From NCBI RefSeq assembly GCF_900105385.1, contig NZ_LT629772.1, forward strand, positions 2,170,001-2,234,000: DNA of 64,000 nt. Reading direction: 5' to 3'. Of this stretch, positions 10,487 to 12,907 are shown one piece after another (position 1 is the stretch's first letter; every line of letters starts with the position of its first letter). The translations under genes were made by a program, and so were the position numbers. Source of the DNA: Microlunatus soli. GTDB taxonomy: Bacteria; Actinomycetota; Actinomycetes; Propionibacteriales; Propionibacteriaceae. The notes beneath the pieces are model-generated. The model was not told the DNA's origin and ran no database searches. It worked only from the letters and a program-made list of their open reading frames with translations.

Positions 10487-10574
10487 TTCTCTCCATTCTT
10501 CAAGTGGTTCACAGGTCGATCGCCGTTAGCGCCCTCTCGATCGAGTGCCCGATGCCGGCGATAATGGATGTGCA

Positions 10575-11582
10575 ATGCCTTCCGAATCAGTGACACCTCG
10601 ACCGTGGTACGACGCGTGGATCGATGCGGCGACCGGCCGGACGGGATTCTGGGGACGCTCCCGGCCGGATGACCATTTCCGGACCGCCTCGCAGTCATCG
10701 GTGTTCGTCGAAGCGGTGTCGGAGTTGCTGGCGAGTGGACCGTACGCCGATTTCGGGACCGTCGTGGAGATCGGCGCCGGGGACGGGTGGTTGCTCGACG
10801 GGCTGCGCAGTAGAGATCCGGACCGCCGCTTCGTCGGTGTGGACCTCCGCCCGAGGCCGGACGGACTCGGAGTCGACTGGTGCACCGGAGCGTGGGACGT
10901 CCGCACCGACAGCTGGCAGTCCTCGGTCGCCGACCTGCTCGGAACGCTGCCGAGCCCGACCATGATCATCTGTGCCGAGTGGCTGGACGATCTGCCCTGC
11001 CCGATCGTCGCCCCGACCTCCGGTGGACGGCAGGGGCCGGACTGGCGAGCTGTACAGGTCGGTCCGGACGGTTCGGAGTCTTTGGGGGGCCCGGTCGCCG
11101 AGGAGGACGCCCGCTGGCTGCAACGCTGGTGGCCGGCCGTCACCGACGGCTCGTTGCCGATGCCGCGACGGGCCGAGTCCGGGCGGACCCGGGACAGCGC
11201 CTGGGCGACCGTGATCCGAGCCCTGCGGCGCTCCGGTGGCGCGGCTCTGATGATCGACTACGGACACCTGCGGGCCGCTCGGCCGCCGGCCGGCACCCTG
11301 ACCGGCTTCGTTGCCGGCCGTCAGGTCCCGGCACGGCCGGACCCGGCGATCAATCTGACCGCCCACGTCGCGGTCGACGCGGTCGCGGCGGCCGGCGAAC
11401 GGGCCGGAGCCCGGACCAGCTTCCTGATCGACCAGCGAACCGCGGTCCGGCGATTCCTGCCCGATCCTCGGCCAACGGGTCCGGACCCGTTGGCCGAGCT
11501 GCAACGACGCGGTGAACAGCGGATGCTGACCGCGACTCTCGGCAGTCACTATTGGCTGCTGCAGGACGTCCCGTCCCCGTAG
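10575..11582 (+). CDS. MidA/NDUFAF7-family SAM-dependent methyltransferase (DUF185)
   Basis: 335 residues. Family hallmarks: GRTGFWGRSRPDDHFRTAS near residues 21-39 (the GFY...HFxTAPE region), the SAM-binding glycine motif VEIGAGDG at 64-71, and AEWLDDLP corresponding to NE(F/W)xDALP. Mitochondrial NDUFAF7 and bacterial MidA methylate an arginine of the 49-kDa/NuoD subunit of complex I. Directly downstream (128 bp, same strand) is a NuoD-like gene, which suggests that the pair is enzyme and substrate. The start at 10575 follows GATAAT by 9 nt, so the leader is minimal; an in-frame ATG at 10545 is less likely. Confidence 0.8.
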   Translation: MPSESVTPRPWYDAWIDAATGRTGFWGRSRPDDHFRTASQSSVFVEAVSELLASGPYADFGTVVEIGAGDGWLLDGLRSRDPDRRFVGVDLRPRPDGLGVDWCTGAWDVRTDSWQSSVADLLGTLPSPTMIICAEWLDDLPCPIVAPTSGGRQGPDWRAVQVGPDGSESLGGPVAEEDARWLQRWWPAVTDGSLPMPRRAESGRTRDSAWATVIRALRRSGGAALMIDYGHLRAARPPAGTLTGFVAGRQVPARPDPAINLTAHVAVDAVAAAGERAGARTSFLIDQRTAVRRFLPDPRPTGPDPLAELQRRGEQRMLTATLGSHYWLLQDVPSP

Positions 11583-11710
11583 CCGCACCGATAGCAGCCC
11601 GGTCGGATGATGATCAGCGGCGACCGCCGCCCGGCGGCAGAGGGCTGTGACTCAGCGGTGAGCCGCGGGCCGAGTTCGGTTGTCGACCGAGGCTTGGGCA
11701 GACTGCTGCC

Positions 11711-12907
11711 ATGACCGACGCAGCGACCGAGCATCTGCGCGTACTGATCGGCTCGCCGGCGATCGGCACCGTCGCCACACCCGAGCCGCACGGCGTGCTG
11801 TTGCTCGATCTCGGCGCCGACCATCCCAGCCGCGCCGGGCTGTTGGAGCTGCGGATCTGGCGCGGCAGCGATGCAGCCGGAACCGGCGTCGTCGAGCGCG
11901 CCGAGGTCGTGGTCGGGGCGATGCATCGCGGCGTGGAGAAACTGTACGAGGTGCGGGACTACCGGCAGATCCTGATGTTGGCCGACCGGCACGACTGGCA
12001 GGCACCGGCGGCTGCCGAGTTGTCGATCGCGTTGGCCTGTGAACGGCTGCTCGGTTTGCAGGTTCCCGAACGGGCGACCTGGCTGCGGACCCTGCTCGCC
12101 GAGCACACCCGGCTGCTCAGCCATCTGGGTTTCCTCGGCTACCTGTGGCACCGCACCGGTGACAGCTCGCCGGTCCACGAACTGCGTGAACGGCTCCGCA
12201 ACCTGCTGCAACGGTGGACCGGCAACCGGGTCCATCCGATGATCAACCGACTCGGTGGCCTGGCCGCCGACGTCGACGACGGCTGGCTGGACGATGAGGC
12301 CGCGCTGATGATCATGGTCCGCAGCGTTGCCGACGCCGCCGCGCAGTTGCTTGCCGAGCCAGGACTGTCGGCCGGTTCGGCAGCGATCCCGGCCCTGACC
12401 CCGGCCCTGATCAGCGAGTACGGGGTCAGCGGCCCGGCGGCCCGCGCGGCGGGAGTCGATCTTGATCTTCGACGGGATCAGCCCTATCTCTGCTATGCCG
12501 AGCTGCGGGCCGAGCTGACCGACCAGCACGGTCTGGCAGCCGAGCTGCCAGCCGGCACGGCGGCGGCGCGACTGGCGACCATGATCGACGAGCTGCGCAA
12601 CAGCGCGACCATGATCAACACGATGACGCAGCGACTGCGCGCCATCCCAGGACCGGTCGGTGTCCGGCTCGCCAAGATCGTCAAGCTCCCCGAGGGTGAG
12701 ATCTACGCCGCGACCGAGGCGCCGCTCGGAATGGCCGGCTGTTATGTCGTCTCTCGTGGCGAGAAGACGCCATGGCGGCTGAAATTGCGGACCCCGAGCT
12801 TCAACAACGTGTCAGCGCTCGAAGCGATGTTGCCGGGTTGCCCGGTATCGGAACTGGAACTTGCGCTGGCCTCGGTGGGATACGTGGTCGGCGACATCGA
12901 CAAGTGA
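11711..12907 (+). CDS. Orphan NuoD-like protein (complex I 49-kDa subunit family)
   Basis: 398 residues, recognisable along its length as the NADH-quinone oxidoreductase subunit D / NiFe-hydrogenase large-subunit fold, but no other nuo gene is near. MHRGVEKL (71-78) matches the HRGxEK motif whose Arg is dimethylated in bovine NDUFS2 (Arg85). The quinone-contacting His of QHPxxHG (His59, bovine) is Ala42 here (DHPSRAG), and the quinone Tyr of DRxDY (Tyr108) is Trp96 (DRHDW). The spacing between the two motifs is the same as in bovine NDUFS2. It is probably not a working quinone-site subunit; it may be a specialised paralogue. The methyltransferase upstream supports a modification link. Confidence 0.8.
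   Translation: MTDAATEHLRVLIGSPAIGTVATPEPHGVLLLDLGADHPSRAGLLELRIWRGSDAAGTGVVERAEVVVGAMHRGVEKLYEVRDYRQILMLADRHDWQAPAAAELSIALACERLLGLQVPERATWLRTLLAEHTRLLSHLGFLGYLWHRTGDSSPVHELRERLRNLLQRWTGNRVHPMINRLGGLAADVDDGWLDDEAALMIMVRSVADAAAQLLAEPGLSAGSAAIPALTPALISEYGVSGPAARAAGVDLDLRRDQPYLCYAELRAELTDQHGLAAELPAGTAAARLATMIDELRNSATMINTMTQRLRAIPGPVGVRLAKIVKLPEGEIYAATEAPLGMAGCYVVSRGEKTPWRLKLRTPSFNNVSALEAMLPGCPVSELELALASVGYVVGDIDK

Follow-up and report, generated by a model that had tools for sequence, protein, structure and literature searches.

Why does a gene for a MidA/NDUFAF7-type methyltransferase stand beside a lone gene for a NuoD-like protein? The question is raised by a 64,000-nucleotide stretch of the Microlunatus soli genome (contig NZ_LT629772.1, positions 2170001-2234000 of a 6.73-Mb genome). 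This whole stretch is called the window, and window coordinates are those within it. One of its genes encodes a MidA-like methyltransferase dependent on S-adenosylmethionine (SAM). The next encodes NuoD2, a relative of the 49-kDa subunit of complex I. It is quite probable that MidA dimethylates Arg73 of NuoD2, and does so for a second complex I that lacks the NADH module, here made of NuoB2, NuoC2, NuoD2, and NuoI2 and with a 2-oxoacid:ferredoxin oxidoreductase as its probable electron source. Homology, substrate uniqueness, and co-occurrence are what suggest the methylation. The features concerned are as follows.

10575..11582, plus strand: MidA/NDUFAF7-type SAM-dependent methyltransferase (DUF185/COG1565, PF02636), with an alternative GTG start at 10545
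11583..11710, plus strand: intergenic gap of 128 bases between MidA and NuoD2
11711..12907, plus strand: NuoD2, putative 49-kDa-type subunit of a second complex I-like enzyme
11834..11836, plus strand: codon of Ala42, at the quinone-His position by alignment with canonical NuoD
11927..11929, plus strand: codon of Arg73 in HRGVEK, the NDUFS2 Arg85 equivalent and predicted MidA target
11996..11998, plus strand: codon of Trp96, at the quinone-Tyr position

The methyltransferase and its presumed substrate

A preliminary description of this DNA stated that a MidA-family gene is followed by a NuoD-family gene on the same strand. The open reading frames (ORFs) and the Pfam matches bear this out. The MidA protein matches PF02636 (Methyltransf_28) with an E-value of 6.4e-9 and 36.1 bits, above the gathering score of 23.3, and is the sole PF02636 match in its genome. 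Its AlphaFold 2 (AF2) model has a predicted local distance difference test (pLDDT) score of 92. With this model, the six top Foldseek chains in the Protein Data Bank, from five entries (4g67, 1zkd, 4f3n, 5ztz, and 5zu0), are all COG1565/DUF185/MidA proteins. These matches have E-values of 4e-17 to 3e-15 and query TM-scores of 0.69-0.72, and the next-ranked match stands at 2e-6. The GxG of the SAM motif, EWLDxxP, and DYxH are invariant across 20 aligned MidA sequences. In 14 control genomes, which include E. coli and Thermus composti, PF02636 found no match.

The family has a known substrate. NDUFAF7 dimethylates Arg85 of NDUFS2 (PMC3829151; papers are cited here from excerpts of their text). 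The same type of methyl mark is also found in Paracoccus and is absent in E. coli (PMC3750175).

NuoD2 is a distant member of the NuoD family. It matches PF00346 with an E-value of 1.1e-43 and 149.7 bits, above the gathering score of 24, and falls under every NCBIfam NuoD cut-off shown (230.3 against 360 bits and 210 against 459.35 bits). By the curated cut-off and by the quinone His and Tyr, it lies outside the canonical NADH:quinone oxidoreductase NuoD equivalog. Its AF2 model (pLDDT 82) matches complex I D-type chains with E-values of 3e-20 to 2e-17 among the 50 Foldseek matches listed. Residues 70-75, which form the HRG loop, have a pLDDT below 50, so the key site is poorly modelled. A [NiFe] hydrogenase large subunit was also considered and rejected, as PF00374 gave 10.2 bits against a cut-off of 25.8.

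Ala42, Arg73, and Trp96 had been placed at named NuoD positions, and the alignment agrees. The interval from Arg73 to Trp96 is 23, and this stretch aligns gap-free to two solved NuoD chains. The quinone-His position, Arg73, and the quinone-Tyr position are taken to be the equivalents of bovine His59, Arg85, and Tyr108. Homologues were examined in two samples, 57 relatives and 197 genomes of the class that are at least 95% complete. Arg73 and Trp96 are invariant in 93 of 93 NuoD2 homologues of one set and in 56 of 56 class sequences; the sets may overlap, and residues are unread for 14 of the 72 class NuoD2 genes. Arg93 and His175, presumably the counterparts of bovine Arg105 and His190 near cluster N2, are kept in 93 of 93. 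Trp replaces the quinone Tyr throughout the homologues read. Loss of the quinone His was seen in just two family groups, f1 (the window's family) and f30.

The canonical NuoD of the same genome reads HTGIEK, with Thr at the position of the methylated Arg. This Thr was also read in 40 of 40 other canonical NuoD proteins, 31 of them from genomes with NuoD2 and nine from genomes without it. This leaves NuoD2 as the sole HRG-bearing NuoD found in the cell. MidA could still be thought to act on the ordinary complex I, like its mitochondrial counterpart, with its place beside NuoD2 being incidental. The human enzyme does act on an ordinary 49-kDa subunit (PMC3829151), and a canonical nuo cluster is present in this genome. 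Such a role is most improbable, given that all 41 canonical NuoD read have Thr in place of the target Arg and that MidA is absent in 19 of 19 relatives and in 123 of 125 class genomes without NuoD2, 114 of the 125 having a NuoD match. Canonical NuoD was therefore rejected as the MidA substrate, having no Arg at the target.

A second set of complex I genes

The preliminary description saw no other complex I genes and called the NuoD-like protein an orphan. The first statement holds for the window, where probes from the nuo genes of this genome and from the second operon of a relative matched the NuoD-like ORF only. For the genome as a whole it fails. A canonical nuo cluster lies at about 3.742-3.755 Mb (A to M were read, most named by eye; NuoN is past the end of the stretch). 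One NuoB homologue is found beyond this cluster, at a second locus at 3.821 Mb, about 1.6 Mb from NuoD2. The order there is NuoB2 (PF01058), NuoC2 (PF00329), a YCII-domain protein, and NuoI2, which has two 4Fe4S motifs. The genes korA (TIGR03710, over the cut-off) and korB (named by eye), for a 2-oxoacid:ferredoxin oxidoreductase, run divergently from them. No nuoD was found at the second locus, and NuoE, NuoF, and NuoG probes gave no match there. A genome-wide search for NuoH found one; other membrane subunits were probed at the second locus only. With this locus and the matching distribution of NuoB2, the orphan status of NuoD2 was rejected.

Two features of the second locus can be added. 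The YCII-domain protein between NuoC2 and NuoI2 (L160:9852-10190) appears in this genome, and a YCII probe found none so placed in 40 other NuoB2 stretches. NuoI2 (L160:10227-10559) resembles the PorD/KorD delta subunit (38.7 bits against a cut-off of 60.05) and might double as a ferredoxin-like Kor subunit.

The residues that face each other in NuoD and NuoB are informative. In Yarrowia, Arg121 of the D subunit faces Thr122 of NDUFS7, and in Thermus, Thr is found in D and Arg83 in Nqo6; both arginines occupy the same space (PMC8042128). At the facing site, the canonical NuoB of this genome carries Arg, placed at Thermus residue 83 by manual count on the alignment, and so do 20 of 20 others (21 of 21 in all). 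NuoB2 has Thr at this site in 40 of 41. Two matched pairs are thus present per genome read, Thr/Arg in the canonical D and B and Arg/Thr in D2 and B2. Through these reciprocal pairs, NuoD2 is therefore tied to NuoB2 at the residue level.

NuoD2 would then be the D subunit of a second complex I-like enzyme without the NADH module (NuoE, NuoF, and NuoG). Its partners would be NuoB2, NuoC2, and NuoI2 from the locus beside korA and korB. NuoB2 presumably holds cluster N2, and Arg73 of NuoD2 would lie against N2 and face the Thr of NuoB2, which is the Yarrowia arrangement. The canonical complex of the same cell would have the opposite arrangement, with Thr in D and Arg in B. MidA may symmetrically dimethylate Arg73 before or during the docking of NuoB2, as is thought for NDUFAF7 on NDUFS2 and NDUFS7, where methylation has been suggested to allow docking (PMC9006661). 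From what is known of the families, KorAB could reduce NuoI2 directly or via ferredoxin, and the electrons would then pass to N2. Quinone would receive them next in those relatives that have NuoH2 and the remaining membrane subunits.

According to the preliminary description, NuoD2 is a 49-kDa paralogue that was repurposed and acts outside canonical complex I. A place outside the canonical complex is kept here. The repurposing is not, since the protein has the appearance of a D subunit belonging to a second complex I-like enzyme, one with its own NuoB2, NuoC2, and NuoI2 and, in many relatives, membrane subunits. It has little probability that NuoD2 acts alone or in a non-respiratory role, with NuoB2 co-occurring through shared ancestry only. 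The gene does lie apart from other nuo genes and the quinone His and Tyr positions are replaced, but the co-occurrence with NuoB2 persists despite the absence of NuoH2 and the chromosomal separation, and the Arg/Thr residues are matched at the presumed D-B interface. NuoD2 could also replace canonical NuoD in the ordinary complex under some condition and yield a quinone-inactive or altered form, in the manner of the subunit exchange proposed for Streptomyces NuoL2/NuoM2 (PMC3765725). This is very improbable. Canonical NuoB supplies the Arg already, so that two arginines would presumably meet at one site, and genome G147, with one D, one B, and one NuoH, all of type 2, offers no canonical complex to enter.

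Distribution of MidA, NuoD2, and NuoB2

NuoB2 is present in exactly the 38 of 57 relatives that have NuoD2 and in none of the other 19. MidA was found in 32 of the 57, all with NuoD2; six of the 38 NuoD2 relatives and all 19 NuoD2-less relatives are without it. In the class, NuoD2 is present in 72 of 197 genomes, with a clean split in score (E-values of 7.4e-98 or better against 2.3e-63 or worse). NuoB2 accompanies it in 71 of the 72. Of these, 67 were called by score (at least 126 bits; the best canonical NuoB reaches 125.2), and the other four (G091, G138, G173, and G182) by the presence of a second NuoB match. Only G059 of the 125 NuoD2-less genomes has two NuoB, both of the canonical type.

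PF02636 matches 64 of the 197 class genomes, every one with NuoD2. A more sensitive profile, A3, matched 105 genomes at an E-value of 1e-4 or below. Of these, 68 were kept (at least 84 bits), and 37 with best matches under 30 bits, mostly over a short SAM-binding stretch, were set aside. The genomes kept are 66 of the 72 with NuoD2, three of which (G073, G182, and G064) have a MidA that is partial or split at contig ends, and G043 and G181, which have no NuoD2. The copies in these last two (L237:5571-6395 and L238:5966-6760) are without model positions of about 30-119, where the SAM-binding motif sits, and the G181 remnant has a stop inside the match. Both genes are thus found in 66 genomes, NuoD2 only in six, a MidA remnant only in two, and neither in 123 (Fisher p 1.5e-42 over the 197 genomes, uncorrected for kinship). 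Both states of the Thermus/Yarrowia Arg/Thr switch are combined in a single genome. It is the Arg-in-D state that MidA accompanies (66 of 72 genomes; otherwise two decayed remnants in 125).

The motif itself varies with MidA. HRG is changed to HRS in three of six class genomes without MidA against one of 50 with it, and the Arg is retained. The single MidA-bearing case is G182, whose MidA match is partial.

MidA and NuoD2 are on the same contig in 65 of 66 genomes, with a median gap of 1953 bases; 64 pairs are within 10 kb and 28 within 500 bases. Of the named NuoD2 loci, the best 80 of 557 confirmed ones were considered. MidA is on 70 of them, and the other ten all have less than 5 kb of DNA before NuoD2. 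The named loci include Streptomyces, Kribbella, Actinomadura, Nonomuraea, and Janibacter, and Streptomyces locus L154 carries MidA and NuoD2 of this clade. The preliminary description held that its reading would be refuted if the two genes were not conserved together; this check did not refute it, in the relatives or in the class. Its proposal of a dedicated methyltransferase-substrate pair is, as an inference, well supported by the single MidA, the canonical NuoD without the target Arg, the near one-way co-occurrence, and the decayed MidA where NuoD2 is gone.

MidA might modify another protein or a nucleic acid, with NuoD2 as a mere neighbor. A Wolbachia MidA expressed in E. coli has been reported to methylate DNA (PMC12455994). 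This is quite improbable here, because among the genomes searched, intact MidA is found only in those with NuoD2.

In the window, the two genes are flanked by lsr2 on one side, with clpC (named by eye) beyond it, and by a threonine exporter gene on the other. The 128-base gap between them has no sigma-70-type promoter or terminator match. A strict MidA-NuoD2 operon was considered and rejected, on the gap and its lack of such matches and on the intervening genes or opposite strands seen in relatives. In two near relatives (L066:7230-9228 and L067:7513-9508), regulator and ABC-transporter genes, named by eye, lie between MidA and NuoD2.

Forms without a second NuoH

The second enzyme appears in fuller and in reduced forms. 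All 16 NuoD2 relatives in groups f2 and f4 have a second complex I-type NuoH (334-343 bits). The three f4 loci read (G044, G047, and G035) each hold A2, B2, C2, H2, I2, J2, K2, and L2, with no match for D, E, F, or G. Membrane subunits were also seen near NuoB2 in G064, G192, G147, G119, G158, and G210. The 22 f1 genomes with NuoD2, some of them incomplete assemblies, have one NuoH, with weak extras of 110-132 bits in G002, G012, and G025. In the f1 loci read (16 besides the one described here), B2, C2, and I2 only were seen, with korA in the stretch in 14 of the 16.

Position 42 is A, T, S, or P, and never His, in the 21 of 21 f1 NuoD2 that reach it (20 in the tree below, and G015; G001 is truncated). 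In the class, five of 56 NuoD2 have Q or N in place of the quinone His, and each comes from an f30 genome with one NuoH. A tree of 81 NuoD2 has 25 non-His rows, all among the 44 without NuoH2 and none among the 37 with it, and the character changes four times on it. This tree was built quickly, its branches are long, and its root is uncertain, so that the direction of change (whether a membrane arm was lost or gained) is inferred. A class genome was scored as having NuoH2 if it had at least two NuoH matches, which may count hydrogenase-type or split copies; the f1 state comes from a separate NuoH search of relatives. The state is unsure for G066, G073, G084, and G217, and near the NuoB2 of G084 and G217 only B2, C2, and I2 were found. 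G147 was recoded as NuoH2-positive, its only NuoH being in the second operon. All 25 non-His rows are without NuoH2 and 19 such rows keep the His; loss of the quinone ligand is therefore seen only where NuoH2 is absent, and not always there. A general rule that the quinone His is lost wherever the membrane arm is absent was tested and rejected, as it fails in that one direction.

Because no second NuoH was found and the quinone His is lost, the f1 module probably either is soluble, as a B2C2D2I2 unit that uses another acceptor, or has altered quinone access. It is possible, though rather doubtful, that in f1, and perhaps independently in f30, the quinone module now stands by itself as a soluble enzyme (NuoB2-C2-D2-I2 with KorAB), passes electrons from 2-oxoacid oxidation to a non-quinone acceptor, and keeps the MidA-methylated Arg by N2. 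If so, the methyl-arginine would act on cluster N2 or on D-B docking and not on quinone chemistry.

Several observations weigh against the proposal that MidA methylates NuoD2 for a Kor-fed second complex. Twelve NuoD2 genomes without detectable MidA (six of 38 relatives and six of 72 in the class) retain Arg73, so methylation is not indispensable to this residue, as has been reported for E. coli. The NuoB2 of G146 is the exception to the facing Thr, and G061 has NuoD2 with no NuoB2 match. MidA and NuoD2 are on the same strand in 48 of 65 cases and on opposite strands in 17, often with other genes between them. KorA is present in 29 of the 41 NuoB2 stretches read (17 of 21 and 12 of 20) and absent from the rest, some of which end early. 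The quinone His is kept in 19 of the 44 rows without NuoH2. The genomes counted are also related, so the counts are not independent.

MidA, nuo2, and the Arg/Thr switch are each already known. The pair of NDUFAF7/MidA and NDUFS2 Arg85 (human, bovine, Pichia, Yarrowia, and Paracoccus) shares the MidA-type fold, the HRG motif, the NuoD-type substrate, and the Arg by N2. It differs in that the likely substrate here belongs to a second complex I-like enzyme, with Trp for the quinone Tyr, while the canonical NuoD of the same cell is without the Arg. Streptomyces genes of this kind have been named nuo2 and nuoD2 (PMC3765725, PMC8388888). They likewise form a second set without E, F, and G and with D2 encoded elsewhere, and the f4 loci are close to them. 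The excerpts of these papers make no mention of MidA or of the residue switch, and only B2, C2, D2, and I2 were found in the window's family. The 11-subunit complex I-like enzymes, such as that of Desulfitobacterium, also lack the NADH module, and ferredoxin from pyruvate oxidation is their proposed donor (PMC11238625); here the enzyme stands alongside a canonical complex, kor is adjacent, and NuoH2 is missing in the window's family. The Thermus/Yarrowia switch (PMC8042128) lies at the two positions compared here, one in D and one in B; in the present case both states occur in one genome. The combination in one cell, the restriction of MidA to the Arg-in-D partner, and the His loss without NuoH2 were not found in the excerpts of the open-licence full texts searched. 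Nor was a report of a MidA-NuoD2 link or of a BCDI module without membrane arm recognized in that literature. Excerpts of four papers treat complex I variants, this one not among them (PMC12361115, PMC4859585, PMC7117926, PMC12142623), and those of PMC4255298 had no match for the terms sought.

These genomes bear on the purpose of a dimethylated Arg beside the last iron-sulfur cluster of complex I. Yarrowia R121M and R121K mutants lose both the N2 signal and activity (PMC8042128), so mutation alone cannot tell the role of the methyl groups. The actinobacteria described here look like a natural experiment, with both switch states in one cell, the methylase with one of them only, and some related genera that dropped the methylase yet kept the subunit. 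If the proposal is true, a midA deletion in an actinomycete should affect the second complex only. Whether the modification is for the cluster and assembly or for the quinone could be read from the forms without NuoH2, some of which also lack the quinone His.

Two further genomes bear on the history of the second operon. In the 3.2-Mb genome of G147 (L284, L239), the sole NuoB, NuoD, and NuoH matches are all of type 2, and it appears that canonical complex I was lost and the second enzyme kept. In G036 of group f2 (L175), only NuoB2, NuoC2, and NuoH2 of the second operon are found within 20 kb, interspersed with other genes. This arrangement is perhaps an intermediate in the loss of the membrane arm.

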